In this document: positions 3,460 through 51,300 of the stretch, in pieces
How the letters are laid out: every line of letters starts with the position of its first letter
How positions within the stretch are numbered: the first letter of the stretch is position 1
From: Sphingobacteriaceae bacterium
GTDB taxonomy: Bacteria; Bacteroidota; Bacteroidia; B-17B0; Aurantibacillaceae
Direction of reading: 5' to 3'
Assembly (NCBI GenBank): GCA_023251775.1
Contig: JAHEYC010000004.1
Coordinates: 1-54,547, forward strand
DNA length: 54,547 nt
Translations under genes and position numbers: made by a program
Notes under the pieces: generated by a model
What the model saw: only the letters and a program-made list of their open reading frames with translations
What the model was told of the DNA's origin: nothing
The model's database searches: none

Positions 3460-3522
3460 AGGCAACCTGTATTTAAACTCCAATTTTCCAAACTGCTGCG
3501 TGAGGGATTGCAGCGGAAATCC

Positions 3523-3553
3523 TTTTTTGCTGAGTAATTCCATTAGCAAAAAA
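3523..3553. repeat. Stem-loop inside a GGATTGCAGCGGAAATCC-type extragenic repeat
   Basis: TTTTTTGCT (3523-3531) pairs with AGCAAAAAA (3545-3553), giving a 9-bp stem. The surrounding text, from GAGGGATTGCAGCGG to AAGCCCGACCCC, is of a kind I recall as a common intergenic repeat in Flavobacteriia; that recollection is not verified here. Confidence 0.55.
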
Positions 3554-3780
3554 GATTGAAGCGAAAAGCCCGACCCCGCATGGTTAATTCCACCTGCGGG
3601 GGCACGCCCAAATTATTCTTCCTAACTAACTCCGATTGGAATCCTCCGTCACTCCGTGACACCTCCTTTTTCAAAGGAGGATAACTTCATTAGAATTACC
3701 CATTTTTCCACTAAGCCTATTGTGATGCATCGTGAACTTCGTTCTTCTTCGTTTACTTCGTGGTTTCTGCCTCTAAAAAA

Positions 3781-7374: not shown

Positions 7375-7842
7375 ATGCAACTAAGCGCCAAACGTAAAGA
7401 GATCCTTATTTATGGCATTTCCATGGCTGCACTTTTATTATTGCTTAAGTGGCTCGAAACTCATTTCATTATTTATAATTACCGTCTTGAAATTTTCATA
7501 GGAGCAATTTCTATTACATTTACTGCTTTAGGAATTTGGCTTGCTCTAAAACTTGTAAAACCAAAAGTGGAGACCCGTATAGTAGAAAAGGAAGTTTATA
7601 TTGATACCTCTTTGCAAACCGAGATCAATCAAAAAGAAATAGATAAGCTTGGAATTAGCAAACGCGAACTGGACGTTTTAGGATTAATGGCCACCGGTTT
7701 AAGCAATGAAGAGATAGCCGAAAAATTATTTGTAAGTTTGAATACAGTAAAAACACATTCGTCCAATATTTTTTTGAAATTGGATGTAAAACGAAGGACT
7801 CAAGCAGTTGAAAAAGCTAAACGATTGAATATCATTCATTAA
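7375..7842 (+). CDS. Membrane-anchored LuxR-type HTH regulator
   Basis: The 155-residue protein has two N-terminal transmembrane helices (about residues 10-28 and 37-58), a short linker and a C-terminal LuxR/NarL-type helix-turn-helix (ISKRELDVLGLMATGLSNEE to about residue 150, with VSLNTVKTHSSNIF as recognition region). It has no receiver domain, so this is a membrane-bound one-component regulator. The ATG at 7375 follows a GTG 6 nt upstream; either is possible. It sits just upstream of a DUF4199-VOC gene pair, whose promoter carries two imperfect direct repeats that could be its targets. Confidence 0.75.
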   Translation: MQLSAKRKEILIYGISMAALLLLLKWLETHFIIYNYRLEIFIGAISITFTALGIWLALKLVKPKVETRIVEKEVYIDTSLQTEINQKEIDKLGISKRELDVLGLMATGLSNEEIAEKLFVSLNTVKTHSSNIFLKLDVKRRTQAVEKAKRLNIIH

Positions 7843-16005: not shown

Positions 16006-18456
16006 CTAAAAATCAACCTTCACATACAATAGCGGCAAAAACCCTAATTGATAATTTCGTATCAATGGGTCTTTTTTAAGATCAGCAGGGTCAGGAGCAT
16101 AACTTAATGCTAAAATATTTTTTGTAGAAAGGATATTTAAAATGTCTAAAGCAATTTCAGTTGAAACTTTTTTACCGTTTATTTTATAAGACAATCTCAG
16201 ATCTAAACGATTATACGGCGCAAACTGTTTTGTATTTACCGAATCACTTACAGGAATAACATCCATAACAGCATTACTTGCAGGAATATTTACGGGCGAA
16301 TAACGACGTCCGCCACCGTAAGTTGCTTTTGTTCCAATACTAATACTATTCTTTTTTGATTTCCCCAATGCAAATTCAAGTCCCGTTAATAAATTCATCA
16401 TGTAATTACCATTGAAATCGGTATTATGAACTTTTTTATCGCTTCCCGTGTATTTACTTTGAAATAAACTAGCACTGTATAATAAGAACCAGTGTTTGTG
16501 GAATAATTTCTCTAACGTGAATTCTAAACCGTAATTATAGCCTGTTCCATTGTTCACCATGGTGTACACCGGGAAGAAACGCGTAAATGTTGCGCCCCTG
16601 TTCAATAATGAAGTACTATTAGGCATAACATAAACGGGAATATTCCAAAGATATTGGTAATACAATTCGGTTTTGAGGCGTAAATATTTTGAAGGGAAAA
16701 TATCATATCCCAAAACTATATGCTGACTTTTTGAAAAATCGAGATTCTTGTTGGCTGGAGTACGACTTCTATTAGGAATTAATACACCATTATTTACAAT
16801 ACTATCTGGTCGCGCATAATAAATATAGGTTGGTTGCATTTGGCTGTGCAAGCCATAAGCCAAACTAATTGATTGGTTATTTCTTATATCGTATTTAACA
16901 CTTGCGCGAGGTTCAATAGCGTATTTATTATTAAGCGTTAGGAATTGCGTAAATAAACCTGCGTTGAAAGTTAGTTTATCATTGAACTTATGTACATATG
17001 AAAAATAAGGCTGTATCAAACAAAAACTGGTAATAACCTCTTCGCGTTTTTTAAATGGTTTGTTTTGGATAACTGTTGGAACAGTATCATACAAGGAGTT
17101 GATCTTGATATTATCGTAAAAATTAATACCGATAACATTAGCGAAGAATCCTGTTTTAAAACTATTCCGCGAATTTATTTTATGCTTTACGAACCAGGAT
17201 AAAGTGGATTTGTATTCATTAAAATTATAATCCAAAATATTTGGCAAGGTATCTTTTGGTTTAAAGTTTGGATAACGCAATACCTGATAATGTTTTGAAT
17301 TTACACTTTGTCCCGATTGCGCCAAGGTTGCACGCATTAATGTCTTTGAATTAAATGAATACACATGACTCAAAATTCCAACGCCCATATTGGTTCGGAA
17401 GTACTGATCGCGGTTAAGATCTCCGTATAATTCGCGCGGACGAACTGTATCTTTACTTAAAATAATATCAATGGTGCTCAATCCTCCAATTCCACTGAAC
17501 GTAAATATCCCCGCTTTTTTTGTCGGGAAATTCAAACGAATGCCTACATCTTGATATCCCGGCACGGCGCTTGTTCCTAAATTAAAATTAACGGCAGAAA
17601 ATAATTTCAATGTTGAATAACGATACGTAATTAAATAACTTGCTCCCGATTTTTTACTTAACGGACCTTCCAGCGCCAATTCAGTCCCTAAAAAACCAAA
17701 TTGAAAAGTACGTTCGTGTTTTTCGCTATTTCCGTTACGCATTTTAAGATCGAATACCGCGCCAAGGGCATTTCCGTAATTTGCAGGAAAAGCACCAGTA
17801 TAAAAATCACTATTCGCTAAATATTTATTGTTTATTAAACTTTGTGGTCCGCCCGCTGAACCTGCCACCGCAAAGTGATTTGGATTTGGAATATCAACTT
17901 CTTCTAAACGCCATAATAAACCGGCAGGACTATTTCCCCTCACCACAATATCATTTCGTGCATCATTATTTCCTTGAACGCCCGCAAAATTTTGCGCCGC
18001 GCGTGCAGGATCTTGACGAGAACCCGGGTAACGCTCTGTTTCTTCTAAATTAAACGATTTTACATTTATAGATTGCATGGTAAGAACATCACCGCTATTG
18101 GCATCAGCTTTTACTTCTACCTCTGCCAGATCCTGCGCGCTTTCATCCATTTCTATTTCTAAATAAAATTCTTTTCCCGATCTAATTATTTGATCGGACA
18201 CAATACGAGGTTTGTATCCCATCATCATATAAATGATCGTTTGTCTTCCAATTGGAACACCGGTGATCTTATAATTACCATTTGCATCCGAAGTTGTTCC
18301 AAGCTTTGTATCGTCGCCTTTTATTTTTACAATAACACCGGGCAATCCAATACCCGTTGCTTTATCGGTAATTTTTCCTTTAACTGTTTGGGTTATTTGA
18401 GCGAACATGCCCCCTATAAGGAGTATAAAAGAATAAAGAAATAGTTGTCTTTTCAT
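16006..18456 (-). CDS. TonB-dependent receptor with carboxypeptidase-regulatory-like N-terminus
   Basis: The 816-residue protein has a signal peptide (ending near GMFAQ), a CarboxypepD_reg-like domain (about residues 22-110, VKGKITDKATGIGLPGVIVKIK), a plug (GVQGNNDARNDIVVRGNSPA and following) and a long outer-membrane barrel ending LLYVKVDF. It is a typical Bacteroidota TonB-linked receptor, but no SusD partner, riboswitch or biosynthetic neighbour reveals a substrate. The start at 18456 is preferred; a start at 18477 adds only seven residues before the signal peptide. Confidence 0.85.
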   Translation of the reverse strand: MKRQLFLYSFILLIGGMFAQITQTVKGKITDKATGIGLPGVIVKIKGDDTKLGTTSDANGNYKITGVPIGRQTIIYMMMGYKPRIVSDQIIRSGKEFYLEIEMDESAQDLAEVEVKADANSGDVLTMQSINVKSFNLEETERYPGSRQDPARAAQNFAGVQGNNDARNDIVVRGNSPAGLLWRLEEVDIPNPNHFAVAGSAGGPQSLINNKYLANSDFYTGAFPANYGNALGAVFDLKMRNGNSEKHERTFQFGFLGTELALEGPLSKKSGASYLITYRYSTLKLFSAVNFNLGTSAVPGYQDVGIRLNFPTKKAGIFTFSGIGGLSTIDIILSKDTVRPRELYGDLNRDQYFRTNMGVGILSHVYSFNSKTLMRATLAQSGQSVNSKHYQVLRYPNFKPKDTLPNILDYNFNEYKSTLSWFVKHKINSRNSFKTGFFANVIGINFYDNIKINSLYDTVPTVIQNKPFKKREEVITSFCLIQPYFSYVHKFNDKLTFNAGLFTQFLTLNNKYAIEPRASVKYDIRNNQSISLAYGLHSQMQPTYIYYARPDSIVNNGVLIPNRSRTPANKNLDFSKSQHIVLGYDIFPSKYLRLKTELYYQYLWNIPVYVMPNSTSLLNRGATFTRFFPVYTMVNNGTGYNYGLEFTLEKLFHKHWFLLYSASLFQSKYTGSDKKVHNTDFNGNYMMNLLTGLEFALGKSKKNSISIGTKATYGGGRRYSPVNIPASNAVMDVIPVSDSVNTKQFAPYNRLDLRLSYKINGKKVSTEIALDILNILSTKNILALSYAPDPADLKKDPLIRNYQLGFLPLLYVKVDF

Positions 18457-41598: not shown

Positions 41599-44529
41599 TT
41601 AATTTTGAACTTCCGGCTTTATAGCCTCATAAAACGCCTTATGCACCTTACCTCTGATCCCTAATTTTGCCAACTTATTATCTTCAGCATCCGGAAAAAC
41701 CCTGTTGCTTAAAAATACAACCACTAATTTACTTTTTGGATCGGCCCATGCAAAAGTTCCTGTAAAACCGGTGTGACCAAAGCTTTCTAAACTACAATCG
41801 CTTGTAACGGGACTATCTTTTTTATCATCGGGTTCGGGCTTTTCAAAGCAAATGCCACGGCGATTACCCGGACAATATCTACAAGAGGTGTATAAATTCA
41901 CAACATTGCTATCCAAATATCTTTTTCCATTGTAAACACCTTTGTTCATATACATGCTCATCAACTTTGCAACATCCATGGCATTTCCAAATAATCCTGC
42001 ATGCCCAGCAACTCCGCCCATTAATGCTGCACCTTGATCGTGCACATAACCATGCACAATTTGTTTACGGAACTTTGAATCATTTTCGGTTGGAGCAATA
42101 TTTTGTAAAGGGAAATGTCGGAGCGGTTTATACGTTAAGCTTAATCCCATTTGCGAATAAATTTCACCCACATATTCATCCAAGGGTTTTTTAGAAATAT
42201 CTTCAATGATGAGTTTTGCATAATAATATCCCAGATCGCTGTATAAATACTTTCCGGGCTTTTCCAATTTACTTTCGGTAATACGTTTGTAAATACTATC
42301 GGTAAAACCTCTTACTACAAATACTTTATTAGCCACCAATGTTGGAAAATTATCTGAACGTTTTTTAGAGATATACTCCTGTTTGAAATTTCCTTTCTTA
42401 TCTATTGTTCGCAAAAAGAAAGGGATCCACGCTTGCATTCCCGCTTGATGCGTAAAAATATCTTCCATGGTCATGTCGGCTTTATTTGTACCCTCTAATT
42501 GCGGAAGATATTCTACAAGACGTTTTGTATGATCAAATCTCTGTTCGCTTTCCAATTTCATCATCGCTAAAGCACTCGCAGTTATTTTTGTTATACTTGC
42601 CAGATCGTAAATGGTTGCTTCATCTACTTTTGGAGATTCGGCTGCATAACTCTGCGTTCCAAAATATTTATTATAGATCACCTCTCCATCATACATCGCC
42701 ACAATTTGACAACCGGGATAAGCTTTCTCGTTTATGCCATAAATAGCAATGCTATCAACCTTTGCGAATTTCTTTTTCTGGTAATCAATTTTATTGATCT
42801 TAACTTCTACCGGAATTGGCATGATGTGCAAACCGCTGCCATAAGGAAAATAATTAGTTGTTACAGGTAAAGTTGCGTCGGTATAAAAATAGCCTAACAT
42901 GGCTTCTCCACTTGCTTTTACCAAGCCGGGAAGATATTCGTAACCCAAGAGTATGGATTTAAAATTACTTATCGACTTTAATTTATTTAGGGCGTATGGA
43001 TTTGCAAAAACACTAAGCACCGTTGGTTTTATTTTTGCAATAGAATCTATCAATTGCAATGTTTGATCGCCTATCCCAAAATTGTTCGCCGCTTTTAATG
43101 TTGTTTTATTTAGTTGGATCACTACTACATCACTTTCAGCAATTCCGGCGAATAGTTGTGCAATAGCTTCCGGTTTTGCATCATGCTTTAATCCAAAATG
43201 CTGTACATAAGCTGTTGATTTCAAAACATCAAATAATTGATTTTGTTTTTCATCACCAAACGAAATTTCGGCGATCTTTAATGTATCGGCACGTTTTAGC
43301 GGTAAAAAATTATTGTCGTTCTTCAGAACTGTTATCGCTGCTCTTCCTAATCTATCATTAAGTTCCGCACTTTCTTTTGTATTTAGATCTTTATTCACAT
43401 TTCTGAAAACGATCTCTTGCTTGGTATTTAAACCGCACCAATATTTTGCTTGTAATATTTTTTTACAACGTGAATCAATTTCTTCTTGAGTGATCTCTCC
43501 ATTTTTTATTGCGAGTTCAATAGCTTCAATAGCCTTTGGAACATTTTCGCTGAACAATAACACATCATTTCCAGCCAATAATGCCTTTACATCAACTTTT
43601 CCGGGTTCAAAATATTTCGAAACACCTTTCATATTTAGGGCATCTGTAAATATCAAACCTTTAAATCCCATTTGTGCTTTTAAAAGATCGTTCACAACTT
43701 TAGGAGAAAGTGTTGAAGCAAGATTTTGTGTTGTATCCAAACTTAGAATGTTCATATGTGCCACCATAATACTTGCCAATCCTCTTTCAAATAAATATCG
43801 GAAGGGATATAATTCCAAAGTATCCAAACGTTCTTTACTATGATTTATGATCGGTAATCCTTTGTGCGAATCAACATCGGTATCACCATGTCCGGGAAAA
43901 TGTTTTGCATTGGCCATCACATGTTCATACTGCATTCCCAACATGTACATGGCCGCTTTTTGAGAAACTTTGAATTTATTTTCTCCAAAACTTCGCATGC
44001 CTATTACAGGATTGTTGGGATTATTATTGATATCAGCAACAGGTGCAAAATTTACATGAATACCCAAACGTTTACACTCTCGCGCAATTTGTCGGCCCAT
44101 ATAAAATATCAAACTATCATTTTGAATGGCACCAAGCGTCATTTGTTTTGGATATTGCGGTGTGCTATCCAAACGCATGGCCAAACCCCACTCTCCGTCG
44201 ATACTGTACAACAAAGGAGTTTTTGCAACACTTTGGTAATAATTCGCCAGTTTTGCTTGTCTGCCCGGACCGCCTTGCATCCAGATCAATCCTCCAATAT
44301 TATATTTATCAATTAGCTCATGAATTTCGCGAACGTGTTTCATGTCTTTATTGCTGTAGGCCGCTATCATAAAGAGTTGCGCGAGACGCTGACGTGGCGA
44401 AAGTGAATTAAATACAGAGTCAACCCACTTGTTTTGGGATACTAAAAATTCAGGTTCTTGCTTCTCTCTAAATCCAAGAAAAACCAATGAACCCAATGCT
44501 ATAAACAGTATAGACCGCAATTTGTTCAA
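41599..44529 (-). CDS. GH3 beta-N-acetylhexosaminidase-like / serine hydrolase fusion
   Basis: The 976-residue protein has an N-terminal hydrophobic signal, then a GH3 domain (about 30-560) with the NagZ-type motif AKHFPGHGDTDVDSHKGLP and a TDALNMKGV segment. A C-terminal class C beta-lactamase-like serine hydrolase domain (about 590-976) has SITK (SxxK nucleophile), YSDLGYY (YxN/D) and HTGFTGT. The pairing suggests an exported enzyme acting on peptidoglycan fragments: one half cleaving GlcNAc linkages, the other a peptide or ester bond. The start is TTG with a TAATTTTA -7-like box 4 nt upstream. Confidence 0.88.
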   Translation of the reverse strand: MNKLRSILFIALGSLVFLGFREKQEPEFLVSQNKWVDSVFNSLSPRQRLAQLFMIAAYSNKDMKHVREIHELIDKYNIGGLIWMQGGPGRQAKLANYYQSVAKTPLLYSIDGEWGLAMRLDSTPQYPKQMTLGAIQNDSLIFYMGRQIARECKRLGIHVNFAPVADINNNPNNPVIGMRSFGENKFKVSQKAAMYMLGMQYEHVMANAKHFPGHGDTDVDSHKGLPIINHSKERLDTLELYPFRYLFERGLASIMVAHMNILSLDTTQNLASTLSPKVVNDLLKAQMGFKGLIFTDALNMKGVSKYFEPGKVDVKALLAGNDVLLFSENVPKAIEAIELAIKNGEITQEEIDSRCKKILQAKYWCGLNTKQEIVFRNVNKDLNTKESAELNDRLGRAAITVLKNDNNFLPLKRADTLKIAEISFGDEKQNQLFDVLKSTAYVQHFGLKHDAKPEAIAQLFAGIAESDVVVIQLNKTTLKAANNFGIGDQTLQLIDSIAKIKPTVLSVFANPYALNKLKSISNFKSILLGYEYLPGLVKASGEAMLGYFYTDATLPVTTNYFPYGSGLHIMPIPVEVKINKIDYQKKKFAKVDSIAIYGINEKAYPGCQIVAMYDGEVIYNKYFGTQSYAAESPKVDEATIYDLASITKITASALAMMKLESEQRFDHTKRLVEYLPQLEGTNKADMTMEDIFTHQAGMQAWIPFFLRTIDKKGNFKQEYISKKRSDNFPTLVANKVFVVRGFTDSIYKRITESKLEKPGKYLYSDLGYYYAKLIIEDISKKPLDEYVGEIYSQMGLSLTYKPLRHFPLQNIAPTENDSKFRKQIVHGYVHDQGAALMGGVAGHAGLFGNAMDVAKLMSMYMNKGVYNGKRYLDSNVVNLYTSCRYCPGNRRGICFEKPEPDDKKDSPVTSDCSLESFGHTGFTGTFAWADPKSKLVVVFLSNRVFPDAEDNKLAKLGIRGKVHKAFYEAIKPEVQN

Positions 44530-44615: not shown

Positions 44616-44623
44616 TAACTTTG
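44616..44623 (+). promoter_or_regulatory. Putative -7 element for the Tyr leader and phenylalanine hydroxylase
   Basis: TAACTTTG matches TAnnTTTG exactly. The leader-peptide ATG begins 4 nt later, so transcription would start at or within a few bases of the ATG and the leader peptide would be read from a leaderless mRNA. Confidence 0.6.
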
Positions 44624-44627
44624 CATC

Positions 44628-44693
44628 ATGTTAAACAACAAAGCATATTATTATTGGTATCCTAATCCCAAGGGAACCGGTATGCTTTATTGA
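44628..44693 (+). CDS. Tyrosine-rich leader peptide of the phenylalanine hydroxylase attenuator
   Basis: This 21-codon ORF reads MLNNKA, then YYYWY (codons 7-11), then PNPKGTGMLY and TGA. Five of 21 residues are Tyr, four of them within a run of five aromatic codons. It is directly upstream of a terminator and of the gene for the enzyme that makes Tyr from Phe. Helix 1:2 is AAAGCATA (44640-44647) with TATGCTTT (44681-44688). Helix 2:3 is ACCGG-TAT (44676-44683) with ATACCCGGT (44721-44729, one bulged C). A ribosome stalled at codon 11 would cover region 1 and leave region 2 free; a ribosome at the stop codon would cover region 2. This is the geometry of classical attenuation. Confidence 0.8.
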   Translation: MLNNKAYYYWYPNPKGTGMLY

Positions 44694-44722
44694 TAATTTT
44701 CAATTTTTTCAAAACAACATAT

Positions 44723-44750
44723 ACCCGGTCTTAAGCCGGGTTTTTTATTT
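44723..44750 (+). terminator. Attenuator (intrinsic terminator) before phenylalanine hydroxylase
   Basis: ACCCGG (44723-44728) pairs with CCGGGT (44736-44741) over a 7-nt loop, and TTTTTTATTT follows at once. The 5' arm can instead pair with leader-ORF sequence 44676-44683, giving an antiterminator. The hydroxylase ATG is only 10 nt beyond the T-tract. Confidence 0.85.
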
Positions 44751-44759
44751 TATCTCACT

Positions 44760-45512
44760 ATGAAAACTTACAAATTAAAACAAAACCTAACTCAGGTTTA
44801 CAAGAACTACACAAACGAAGACCTCACTGTATGGAAACTACTGTTCAAGCGTCAATTTGCATTGCTTAAAACCCTTGCAGCGCCGGAGTATTTGCAAGCA
44901 TTGGAGAAAATTGGTTTTACGGCCAATAAAATTCCTGATTTTAGCGAAACCAATACCATTTTAAGTAAAATAACAGGATGGAAATTGGAAGTTGTAGAAG
45001 GGATCATCAGCGAACCCGATTTTTTTGAATTACTTTCTCAAAAGCGTTTTCCTGCCACAACTTGGCTAAGAAAATTGAATGAATTGGATTATTTACCGGA
45101 GCCCGATATGTTTCACGATGTATTTGGACATGTACCCTTATTAATTGAACCAAAGTTCAGCACTTTTTTTGAAGAGTTCGGTAAATTGGGAGTAAAATAC
45201 AAGTGTGACCCTCAGACAGTTCAGATGCTTGGAAGGATCTATTGGTTTACTATTGAGTTTGGCTTGATCAAAAGTAAAAATGAACTAAAAATTTACGGCG
45301 CAGGTATTCTTTCTTCGCATGGAGAAAGCAAATACTCGGTAGGAAATCAGCCTGCACATTTACCATTTGATGCTAAAATCATTATGAATACACCATTTGA
45401 GAACGATAAGATCCAGGATAAATATTTTGTTATTGATTCGTTTGATCAATTATACGAAAGCATGCAGCTTATTAAGCGTACGATATTTGAAAAGTTCAAG
45501 GTGCAGGTTTGA
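44760..45512 (+). CDS. phhA: Phenylalanine 4-hydroxylase
   Basis: The 250-residue, single-domain bacterial-type aromatic amino acid hydroxylase has PDMFHDVFGHVPLL with iron ligands His119 and His124, and the third ligand Glu166 in YWFTIEFGL. GAGILSSHGESKYS is also family-typical. It hydroxylates Phe to Tyr using Fe(II), O2 and a tetrahydropterin, either to supply tyrosine or to start Phe breakdown. A leader peptide rich in Tyr codons plus a terminator precedes it, so expression probably rises when charged tRNA-Tyr is scarce; this supports a biosynthetic role. It is the only enzyme gene in the transcription unit before the cobalamin riboswitch. Confidence 0.95.
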   Translation: MKTYKLKQNLTQVYKNYTNEDLTVWKLLFKRQFALLKTLAAPEYLQALEKIGFTANKIPDFSETNTILSKITGWKLEVVEGIISEPDFFELLSQKRFPATTWLRKLNELDYLPEPDMFHDVFGHVPLLIEPKFSTFFEEFGKLGVKYKCDPQTVQMLGRIYWFTIEFGLIKSKNELKIYGAGILSSHGESKYSVGNQPAHLPFDAKIIMNTPFENDKIQDKYFVIDSFDQLYESMQLIKRTIFEKFKVQV

Positions 45513-45573: not shown

Positions 45574-45581
45574 TATATTTG
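45574..45581 (+). promoter_or_regulatory. Putative -7 element for the cobalamin riboswitch transcript
   Basis: TATATTTG matches TAnnTTTG exactly and lies just before the riboswitch. Confidence 0.55.
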
Positions 45582-45587
45582 TCACGT

Positions 45588-45800
45588 TATTGGTTCTTTC
45601 CTTTAATAAAAAGGAAGATTAAATGGGAATAGTGTTGAACTCACTAACAGTACCCGCTGCTGTAATTCTCTAAAAAGAACCGGTCATTCTAAAGCCACTG
45701 CCCTCGGAAGTTCCGAGACGGGAAGGCGACCGGAAAGAGATAAGTCAGAAGACCTGCCGTAACATTGGATCTTGAAGCTTTCGGGAAGTGAAGCTGAATA
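45588..45800 (+). ncRNA. Cobalamin (B12) riboswitch
   Basis: The region contains the conserved core in order: GGGAATAGTG, then CTAACAGTACCCGCTGCTGT, then AAGCCACTGCCC, a stem TCGGAAGTTCCGA, GGGAAGGCGACCGG, and the B12 box AGTCAGAAGACCTGCC (45743-45758). An AGCTT...AAGCT hairpin downstream (about 45777-45795) may be part of the expression platform. It precedes a BtuB-like receptor, the expected target, and should repress it when adenosylcobalamin is abundant. Exact ends are estimates. Confidence 0.92.
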
Positions 45801-45814
45801 GAACGCTATAAAAC

Positions 45815-47752
45815 GTGTTACATTTAAAAACACATACACACTTCGGTGTCGGTTTTTGCTTTATAAAAACGGGCCTGATCTTTATTTTTGTTTTTGGAAC
45901 AGCAAAAGCACAAAATAAAGACACTACTTTATTGCATGAAGTAACAGTTAAAGCAACAAAATTAAATTCTTCCATCGTTGGCAAAAAATTTCAGAAGATC
46001 GATTCGTTGAGTTTAGAATTATTCAAAAATCAAACTCTAGATGTTCTGTTAAGTAACAACACACCAATTTTTGTGAAGAATTACGGTCCCGGTGCTTTGC
46101 AAACTACAACCTTTCGCGGAGGCAACGCATCGCAAACAGCAATTTTATGGAATGGTTTGAATATTCAGAATAGTATGTTGGGACAAACTGATCTTAGTAA
46201 TATTTCGGGAAGTTTATTTAATTCGGTGGAAATTGAATATGGCGGATCATCGACCCTTTGGGGCTCGGGAGCCATGGGTGGTGCGGTTCATTTAAATAAT
46301 ACGCATTTATTCAATAGTGGAGTTCACTCAAAATTAAATACCATGATTAGTACCATTGGTTCGCGATCCGCATTTACCGACGTGGGTTATAGTAATTCAA
46401 AATTTAGCTTTGCCTTAAAAGCATTTGTTGTAAAAAATAAAAATGAATACGCTTATTATAATGACAGCAATAGTGTAGTAAAACAAAAAGATGCTTCGCA
46501 TGATCAATTTAGTGCCATGCCCGAATTAAAGTGGTTGATCAACAAAAATAATACAGTGCAAACGGGGGCTTGGTTAACCAAAGGACAAAGAAATATTCCA
46601 AATTTCAATACCATCCATAATAAAATTCAACAACAGGATGAAAGCGAGCGCCTGAACGTGAATTGGCAGCATTCTAAAAATAAGATCACAAATAATTTAA
46701 GGGCGGCTTATTTTACGGAGTTTTTGAATTATACGGATAGTTTAGCAAGGATAGATTCAAAAAGCACCATGCAAACACGGATAGTTGAAGATGAACTTTA
46801 TTTTAAATGGAAAAGTGATCATACACTTAACTTGGGATTCAATTATACAAAAAACGAAGGAAGTACCGAGAATTATAACGGAAGTAAATTCATAGAGAAA
46901 TATGCATTCCTTGTATCACACAAAGATGTTTTCTTAAATGAAAAGATCTCAACTAATGTGGCTATTCGTTTAGAACATACAAGTTCAAACCTAAACCCAA
47001 TTACCTTCAATATTGGAGCAAATTATTTAGCTCATAAAAATATCATTCTAAAATTAAATACGGGAAAAGTGTACCGAATCCCTACCTTAAATGATCTTTA
47101 CTGGATACCGGGTGGAAACCCTGATCTAAAACCGGAAGAAGGATACACGGCAGATGGGACGATCGAATATTCTACCACAAAAGATGCGTATGATATAAAA
47201 ATAAGTGGAAGTGCGTTTTCTAAATTGATCTCAAATTGGATCCAATGGGTGCCTTATGGAGTTGGCAGTTACAAACCAATTAACCTGCAAGAAGTTTTTA
47301 GCAGAGGGAGCGAAACACAATGGCAAATTGGATATACAAAGAATGAATTTAAAGTTCAATTAAAATGCATCACCTCTTATGTGCTTTCTACTGTGAACAA
47401 AACTGAATTAGAAAGTGATCAAACCCTTAATAAGCAATTGATCTATACGCCACGTTACACTATTAATTCATCAATCACTTTAAAATACAAAACATTTGCC
47501 ATTTCTTATTTCCATAATTATATTGGTTATAGATTTACATCGAGCGATAATACCCAATGGTTGAGTCCTTACCACTACTCTACTTTAAGAGCAACTTGCA
47601 CTTATCAATTACAAAAAATGGAATTTGGATTCTTTTCGAACATCAATAATGTTTTAAATAAACAAATAGAGGTCTTGGCGAACCGACCAACTGCTTTACG
47701 CTATTTTGAAATAGGCATACAATTAAATTATAAAAACATAAAAAAAACATAA
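45815..47752 (+). CDS. btuB: TonB-dependent cobalamin receptor, BtuB-like
   Basis: The 645-residue protein has a signal peptide (hydrophobic about 16-30, ending AKAQ), a short TonB-box region (TTLLHEVTVKATK), a plug (TTTFRGGNASQTAILWNGLN, QNSMLGQTDLSNI, GSSTLWGSGAMGGAVHL) and a 22-strand-type barrel ending FEIGIQLNYKN. The start is a GTG; no ATG lies upstream of the signal peptide in frame. It lacks the CarboxypepD_reg domain of the other TonB receptor here. The immediately upstream cobalamin riboswitch and the downstream DUF4465 gene, 1 nt away, assign it to B12 uptake. Confidence 0.9.
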   Translation: MLHLKTHTHFGVGFCFIKTGLIFIFVFGTAKAQNKDTTLLHEVTVKATKLNSSIVGKKFQKIDSLSLELFKNQTLDVLLSNNTPIFVKNYGPGALQTTTFRGGNASQTAILWNGLNIQNSMLGQTDLSNISGSLFNSVEIEYGGSSTLWGSGAMGGAVHLNNTHLFNSGVHSKLNTMISTIGSRSAFTDVGYSNSKFSFALKAFVVKNKNEYAYYNDSNSVVKQKDASHDQFSAMPELKWLINKNNTVQTGAWLTKGQRNIPNFNTIHNKIQQQDESERLNVNWQHSKNKITNNLRAAYFTEFLNYTDSLARIDSKSTMQTRIVEDELYFKWKSDHTLNLGFNYTKNEGSTENYNGSKFIEKYAFLVSHKDVFLNEKISTNVAIRLEHTSSNLNPITFNIGANYLAHKNIILKLNTGKVYRIPTLNDLYWIPGGNPDLKPEEGYTADGTIEYSTTKDAYDIKISGSAFSKLISNWIQWVPYGVGSYKPINLQEVFSRGSETQWQIGYTKNEFKVQLKCITSYVLSTVNKTELESDQTLNKQLIYTPRYTINSSITLKYKTFAISYFHNYIGYRFTSSDNTQWLSPYHYSTLRATCTYQLQKMEFGFFSNINNVLNKQIEVLANRPTALRYFEIGIQLNYKNIKKT

Positions 47753-51162: not shown

Positions 51163-51300
51163 ATGAAAACACTTAATTTCATTCTTTGCTCAGCCGGCAT
51201 CACCGGTAAATTAAGCTCCTTGAGCAAGAGTGTGTTTTTTTCAACAGCTAACCTGTTGTTTATTTTACCAGCACGCCCGGTATTCTATATCCGACGTTGA
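51163..51300 (+). CDS. Arginine operon leader peptide (ends Arg-Arg-stop)
   Basis: This 45-codon ORF starts ATGAAAACACTTAATTTC and ends ARPVFYIRR then TGA; its only Arg codons are CGC, CGA and CGT, all in the last nine. It lies 87 nt upstream of the first gene of an arginine biosynthesis operon. A terminator-like hairpin (CAACAG/CTGTTG at 51242-51258 followed by TTTATTTT) is inside the ORF. A second hairpin (51331-51346) lies after it, and its GTCGG can alternatively pair with CCGAC (51291-51295) spanning the last Arg codons. I infer an arginine-sensing leader; whether it acts by codon stalling or nascent-peptide arrest is not decidable from one sequence. Confidence 0.6.
   Translation: MKTLNFILCSAGITGKLSSLSKSVFFSTANLLFILPARPVFYIRR

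Follow-up and report, generated by a model that had tools for sequence, protein, structure and literature searches.

The locus raises a simple question: why does a short open reading frame (ORF) rich in tyrosine codons, followed by an intrinsic terminator, precede the gene for phenylalanine 4-hydroxylase (PAH)? An earlier note on the window, by which we mean the whole 54,547-nt stretch of DNA analysed, had read the arrangement as a tyrosine-sensing attenuator. When the sequence was re-read to the base, the ORF, three helices, the terminator and the 4-nt gap between the promoter box and the leader ATG all lay exactly where that note had placed them (Table 1). On the strength of these sequence parts, their conservation, the covariation of the terminator stem, a weaker covariation of the antiterminator, and a gene content that fits an anabolic PAH, we put at about 0.92 the probability that the window leader is a ribosome-mediated transcription attenuator sensing charged Tyr-tRNA(Tyr).

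Table 1. Features of the leader and PAH gene in the window, and of the leaders of tRNA arrays in related genomes
Feature	Position	Strand	Basis or remark
-7 promoter box TAACTTTG	44616-44623	+	exact match to consensus TAnnTTTG; read in the sequence
Predicted transcription start, A of leader ATG	44628	+	inferred from box spacing
Leader ORF MLNNKAYYYWYPNPKGTGMLY	44628-44693	+	21 codons; sequence and ORF list
Segment 1	44640-44647	+	pairs with 44681-44688 (helix 1:2); pairing check
Regulatory codons TAT TAT TAT TGG TAT (Tyr-Tyr-Tyr-Trp-Tyr)	44646-44660	+	codons 7-11; sequence
Segment 2	44676-44688	+	44676-44683 with segment 3 form the antiterminator; 44681-44688 pair with segment 1
Leader stop codon	44691-44693	+	ORF list
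Segment 3	44721-44729	+	common to antiterminator and terminator; helix 2:3 has one bulged C
Intrinsic terminator	44723-44750	+	stem 44723-44741 and T-rich tail; terminator search, covariation
Phenylalanine 4-hydroxylase (PAH)	44760-45512	+	NF008877, 283.8 bits (cut-off 247); TIGR01267, 277 bits (cut-off 264.75)
Array-leader ORFs	L256:4987-5191	+	genome G004
Array-leader ORF	L257:15407-15487	-	genome G012
Array-leader ORFs	L258:5968-6204 and 7501-7557	+	genome G024
Similar leader, for comparison	L285, about 16520-16603	-	resembles the leader of L258

The folding energy of the 135-nt window leader is -28.9 kcal/mol, compared with a mean of -17.8 (sd 2.7) among its shuffles (z -4.05), and none of 200 shuffles did as well. 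Its own pairing of segments 2 and 3 reaches p = 0.050 against shuffles, which is marginal when taken alone; the strength of the case is conservation across loci. The terminator ends 9 nt before the PAH ATG. As the upstream neighbour (41599-44529) lies on the opposite strand to the leader, a plus-strand terminator cannot serve a co-directional upstream gene and therefore belongs to the leader/PAH transcript. No clear -33 element was seen by eye at the usual distance before the window leader.

From these parts we infer a start site, ribosome stalling and a response to Tyr shortage that would work together as follows. Transcription would begin at the leader AUG or within 1-2 nt of it, and a ribosome would initiate directly at the transcript's 5' end. 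With ample Tyr-tRNA, it would reach the leader stop codon and mask segment 2; helix 3:4 would then form, and RNA polymerase would halt at 44741-44750, ahead of PAH. With Tyr-tRNA scarce, the ribosome would stall at codons 7-11 and mask segment 1, leaving segment 2 to pair with segment 3, so that no terminator would form, PAH would be made and Phe would be converted to Tyr. Without translation, helix 1:2 would form and the terminator would stand.

In this class of attenuator the product of the regulated gene makes the amino acid sensed, and PAH is such a gene, as judged by its NCBIfam matches, its closest solved structures (bacterial PAHs) and a genome of its own in which TyrA and PheA have no match. 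H119, H124 and E166, which we take to be the iron ligands, are invariant in 15 sequences. The window's own genome (98.5% complete) has one PF00351 match, retains chorismate synthase, and gave no match for TyrA, PheA, homogentisate dioxygenase or pterin carbinolamine dehydratase; a gene for the last of these lies directly 3' of PAH in L010. Among the 87 genomes of the family, PAH is present in 27, PheA (prephenate dehydratase, PF00800) in seven and chorismate synthase in 83, and a homogentisate dioxygenase domain gave two weak matches, neither in the window's own genome. PF02153 (TyrA, prephenate dehydrogenase) gave 20 matches in the 87 genomes, of which one is a clear TyrA (G050). The other 19 were set aside as weak, four of them just above the Pfam cut-off; two of the 19 were read, the strongest (L110) being a pyrroline-5-carboxylate reductase (ProC) by NCBIfam and the other (L111) nearly the same protein. 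On this gene content, the organism probably takes up its Phe or makes it by a route not yet recognised, and produces Tyr with PAH. PAH is thus probably the family's route to Tyr, and its members are probable Phe auxotrophs.

Bacterial PAH is usually described as catabolic, but fitness data have led to the proposal that it serves as a Tyr source in Dyella and, beside TyrA, in Echinicola (PMC7311316, partial text). The earlier suggestion that PAH here is anabolic, making Tyr from Phe, is thus backed both by gene content and by the Echinicola fitness data (PMC7311316, partial text). The idea that the leader generally goes with loss of TyrA was rejected: outside the family, TyrA occurs in 15 of 28 genomes with a leader and 11 of 20 without, a comparison of 48 genomes drawn from 50 loci (L037 and L077 omitted), with 26 further loci of the collection outside it.

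If the Tyr codons matter, they should recur before PAH elsewhere. Within the family, a Tyr-rich ORF stands at the same place in 25 of the 26 PAH loci with readable upstream DNA; the sole exception, L028, has a PAH that is 38% identical and lies in the only family genome with a clear TyrA. A second collection comprised 80 named PAH loci. Across both collections, a short ORF rich in Tyr, or in Tyr and His, precedes PAH at 66 of the 102 distinct loci, 25 of them from the family and 41 from the named collection, and 36 lack the device; the 102 are L002-L108 (107 loci) less the repeats L032, L044, L047 and L080 and less L021, which has no upstream DNA. The named carriers are Algoriphagus, Roseivirga, Marivirga, Fulvivirga, Litoribacter, Hymenobacter, Solirubrum and one record labelled Flavobacteriales. 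A terminator was found by rule in 64 of the 66, one of them (L087) dubious. The 66 comprise leaders found by rule and seven added by hand (L005, L008, L016, L017, L027, L046 with a GTG start, and L048), with the spurious L031 and L101 removed. A purely mechanical rule (an ATG ORF of 10-40 aa within 250 nt, with at least three Tyr in six codons) found 49 of the 102 loci, 47 with a terminator after the ORF; from 40 dinucleotide shuffles of each locus, 1.5 and 0.025 loci, respectively, would be expected.

The leader peptides share little besides their Tyr (and His) codons, with runs such as YYYWY, YYYYY, SKYYY, RYYAYAYY, YHYHYYY, HNHYYYY and TYVHHSYH, and Tyr accounts for 19.7% of the residues in leaders but 4.4% of those in PAH. 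The check that the earlier note had proposed thus found conserved Tyr codons in relatives while the remaining peptide varies. Trp is not claimed as a second signal, as outside the window's group only L048 retains the W of YYYWY.

A fresh sample was drawn from the order of Marivirga, which we take to be Cytophagales. There were 117 genomes with PAH, yielding 110 loci (L146-L255) after exclusion of seven weak matches with 26-29% identity, and 106 once the repeats L146, L149, L162 and L174 were dropped. The Tyr rule finds the device at 18 of these 106 loci and 88 are without it; it is a minority among PAH loci of that order at large. A rule blind to composition, which takes an ORF 3-8 nt past a promoter box and then a terminator, picks out 69 of 208 loci in both samples together. 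Its 21 loci among the fresh 106 are 14 Tyr or Tyr/His leaders, L188 (of no clear type) and six with a different conserved leader. This second PAH leader type (L232, L234, L235, L236, L237 and L239) has an ORF of the MMNQTAKCFCLNIRPVVDGVGLYCRYGS type, without a Tyr run, that starts 155-173 nt 5' of PAH and has a perfect promoter box 4-8 nt ahead of it; the leader also has an internal hairpin and a GAGTCGGGC-like segment opposite the terminator arm GCCCGACTC, and reached no Rfam cut-off.

Attenuation further requires alternative helices. Over eight near sequences, helix 1:2 is paired in 95.3% of cells with one pair changed on both sides, and the terminator stem (3:4) in 100% with three such pairs; together they give 97.5% and four double-changed pairs, and slid versions 23-49%. 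Terminator arms prefer their own partners to exchanged ones at z -13.3 in 27 dissimilar representatives of 63 loci. In the same number of representatives, segment 2 pairs with its own segment 3 at -10.7 kcal/mol versus -9.1 with another's (p 0.0004), though it outranks every other segment 2 for that segment 3 in only 2-3 of the 27. Against shuffles, the 2:3 pairing has p at or below 0.05 in 28 of 64 loci and above it in 36 (median z -1.7); the loci are related, and the p-values of this test, like those of the His-codon and TAT/TAC comparisons below, overstate independence. The covarying helices expected of relatives were thus recovered clearly for the terminator stem and more weakly for the antiterminator. 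In 60 of 64 loci the start of segment 2 falls 43-60 nt from the beginning of the ORF, beyond the Tyr run, and because of this placement a Tyr-stalled ribosome would leave it free; a ribosome at the stop codon of the window leader would cover it. Over the set of loci, an antiterminator exclusive with the terminator is present and placed as attenuation requires.

A conserved terminator with alternative helices is also what a riboswitch would look like, and an RNA aptamer or T-box-like element, binding a ligand or tRNA, could make use of it with the Tyr ORF incidental. We consider this very unlikely: no Rfam family reaches its cut-off at the leader, and what the lineages keep, at the Tyr excess given above, is in-frame Tyr codons and not RNA sequence. 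In the whole window only two Rfam families reach their cut-offs, both elsewhere: a Cobalamin riboswitch (45574-45775, 87.8 bits), which precedes a TonB-dependent receptor gene (45815-47752), and a Flavo-1 RNA (3487-3579, 64.9 bits). At 51163-51300, the frame MKTLNFILCSAGITGKLSSLSKSVFFSTANLLFILPARPVFYIRR (by eye) has Arg codons at its end and precedes what reads as an argG-/argC-like gene set; no terminator was seen by eye after it.

A match of at least 5/6 to TAnnTTTG lies within 24 nt upstream in 51 of 66 leaders versus 28% of shuffles, and a 6/6 match in 28 of 66 versus 2.3%, scores somewhat raised by the practice of favouring, among several in-frame ATGs, the one with the best box. In 43 of the 66 the box (at least 5/6) stands 4-6 nt before the leader ATG, and only two have one within 24 nt of the PAH ATG itself. 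In Flavobacterium psychrophilum the box lies at -12 to -5 (PMC9723704, partial text), and with the window's gap of 4 nt the predicted +1 is therefore the A of the leader ATG. The leaderless translation that the earlier note had proposed is supported by this conserved spacing, with the start site a prediction. Leaderless mRNAs make up about 5.5% in F. psychrophilum (PMC9723704, partial text), and 5' UTRs shorter than 10 nt about 3.7% in Bacteroides thetaiotaomicron (PMC7366714, partial text); given this rarity, a conserved, predicted leaderless layout deserves attention.

The composition of the leaders follows that of the operon behind them. L062, for instance, has the order trpF-trpB-trpA-aroG, leader and terminator, PAH, hisH, hisA, hisF, hisIE (the trp genes named, and hisA distinguished from hisF, by reading). 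Of the first set, 24 leaders are followed by hisH at a distance of at most 2.5 kb, and every one of them has two or more His codons; among the 39 without hisH, 25 have none, nine have one, four have two and one has three. With the fresh loci added, at least two His codons occur in 33 of 36 leaders with hisH versus 7 of 44 without. The ten exceptions among these 80 are L166, L171 and L201, with hisH and fewer than two His codons, and L018, L019, L068, L079, L099, L217 and L218, with His codons and no hisH found in the stretch examined; L217 and L218 are in this count and absent from the PAH tree, and the doubtful L157 was left out of the count. On the PAH tree hisH changes only five times, and a tree test of the association had three supported independent pairs, too few for significance. 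With so few independent changes, the association makes a strong pattern, but the independent evolution behind it is thin.

Leader codon content thus tracks operon content, His codons being usually present where hisH follows PAH, and the leaders of PAH-hisH operons probably sense both Tyr and His. A single leader with codons of several amino acids is familiar from the thr and ilv operons of enterobacteria; here the mix is Tyr and His, and usually follows the presence of hisH in the operon. We consider it somewhat more likely than not that Bacteroidota have a leaderless attenuator module that can be re-written, its run of codons evolving to match the operon, purely Tyr before a stand-alone PAH and interleaved Tyr/His (YHYHYYY, HHYYYYY, YVHHSYH) before PAH-hisH, one switch for two unrelated amino acids.

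The same observations bear on two further explanations of the leader. The terminator could be constitutive, a moderator of read-through that does not respond to any amino acid, with the ORF merely coupling translation to transcription; that Tyr codons are enriched and conserved, and that His codons usually appear with hisH, makes this as improbable as an aptamer. Tyr and His tRNAs both carry queuosine (Q), and pterin and Q are fed by the same early enzymes. Least probable, by a little, is that the leader reports slow NAU decoding, through Q modification, rather than Tyr charging: the first 66 leaders do prefer TAT over TAC (202:65 versus 317:382 across the PAH genes of the same loci; odds ratio 3.7) with an opposite lean in non-Q NNY codons (odds ratio 0.73), but the preference was not replicated in 16 fresh leaders (42:27 versus 106:88, odds ratio 1.3, p 0.4), Asn shows no AAT bias, Asp is depleted, and hisH in the operon explains the His codons better. 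TAT bias was accordingly no longer taken to indicate queuosine sensing. Within the first set, the lean to TAT holds also in the G+C-rich Hymenobacter.

An attenuator sensing charged Tyr-tRNA thus remains our reading, and the mechanism class is long known; the less usual traits are the predicted leaderless start and the Tyr/His mix. As in E. coli trpL and pheL, a short ORF holds codons for the operon's product and expression follows charged tRNA (PMC11802643, partial text); here the target is PAH, the start is predicted to be leaderless and the phylum is Bacteroidota. The Corynebacterium glutamicum aroR leader (Phe-Tyr-Phe) before aroF is likewise an aromatic attenuator with a Tyr codon, but it belongs to another phylum, controls DAHP synthase under Phe limitation and, as presented in the partial text, has no Tyr run (PMC11802643). 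Mycobacterial poly-Cys attenuators are likewise short leaderless ORFs in which the codons for one amino acid stand in an unbroken row, and they control downstream genes (Canestrari 2020, via PMC9031893, partial text); they differ in phylum and amino acid, and the intrinsic terminator switch is the window leader's. Closest in phylum and promoter type are attenuators predicted before amino-acid operons of F. psychrophilum from structured leaders, in a study whose main text contains neither "tyrosine" nor "phenylalanine" (PMC9723704, partial text). Among the papers listed by searches of open-access full text, none described PAH attenuation, Tyr/His leaders or such a leaderless layout in Bacteroidota. 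The earlier note, too, knew of no described case for this enzyme in the phylum, but attenuation before Flavobacterium amino-acid operons had already been inferred (PMC9723704, partial text).

A covariance-model search for copies of the PAH leader before other genes gave strong matches only at the eight PAH loci behind the model. Among the 11 loci with weak matches listed, three led to tRNA arrays adjoining RNA-repair genes, each in a different genome of the genus to which the window belongs (G004, G012 and G024). Neighbours in L256 are RtcB (twice), an RF-1 domain protein, TROVE, RlaP and WYL, and in L258 an RNA ligase and WYL; the L257 contig has RlaP some kilobases from the array, and the window's own genome has no RlaP. 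The arrays include tRNA-Ile with anticodon UAU, and short ORFs with terminators were seen by eye 5' of them. The codons of six such ORFs cover 7/7, 7/7, 9/10, 7/9, 8/9 and 9/9 of the arrayed tRNAs (p 0.0058, 0.0004, 0.0027, 0.032, 0.0063 and 0.00005, respectively, versus random ORFs of the same codon usage), p-values that are optimistic because the ORFs were picked by eye and the decoding rules were our own. Of eight further tRNA stretches, six have no ORF with terminator, a second array in L257 is covered 4/9 or 3/9 (p above 0.9), and L285 is covered 6/8 (p 0.24). It is possible that these leaders are attenuators sensing depleted or cut tRNAs and releasing a backup tRNA array; a single, limited literature search found nothing like a tRNA-array attenuator.

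For a phylum with few worked-out examples, the PAH leader offers a clear, testable RNA switch. If its leaderless start is true, attenuation would proceed there without the usual ribosome-binding site. The Tyr/His leaders amount to a natural experiment that supports the mechanism without bench work, and leader codons suggest a way to read the contents of operons. If the attenuator reading is true, it would mark a bacterial PAH as a Tyr-biosynthetic enzyme under feedback by Tyr.
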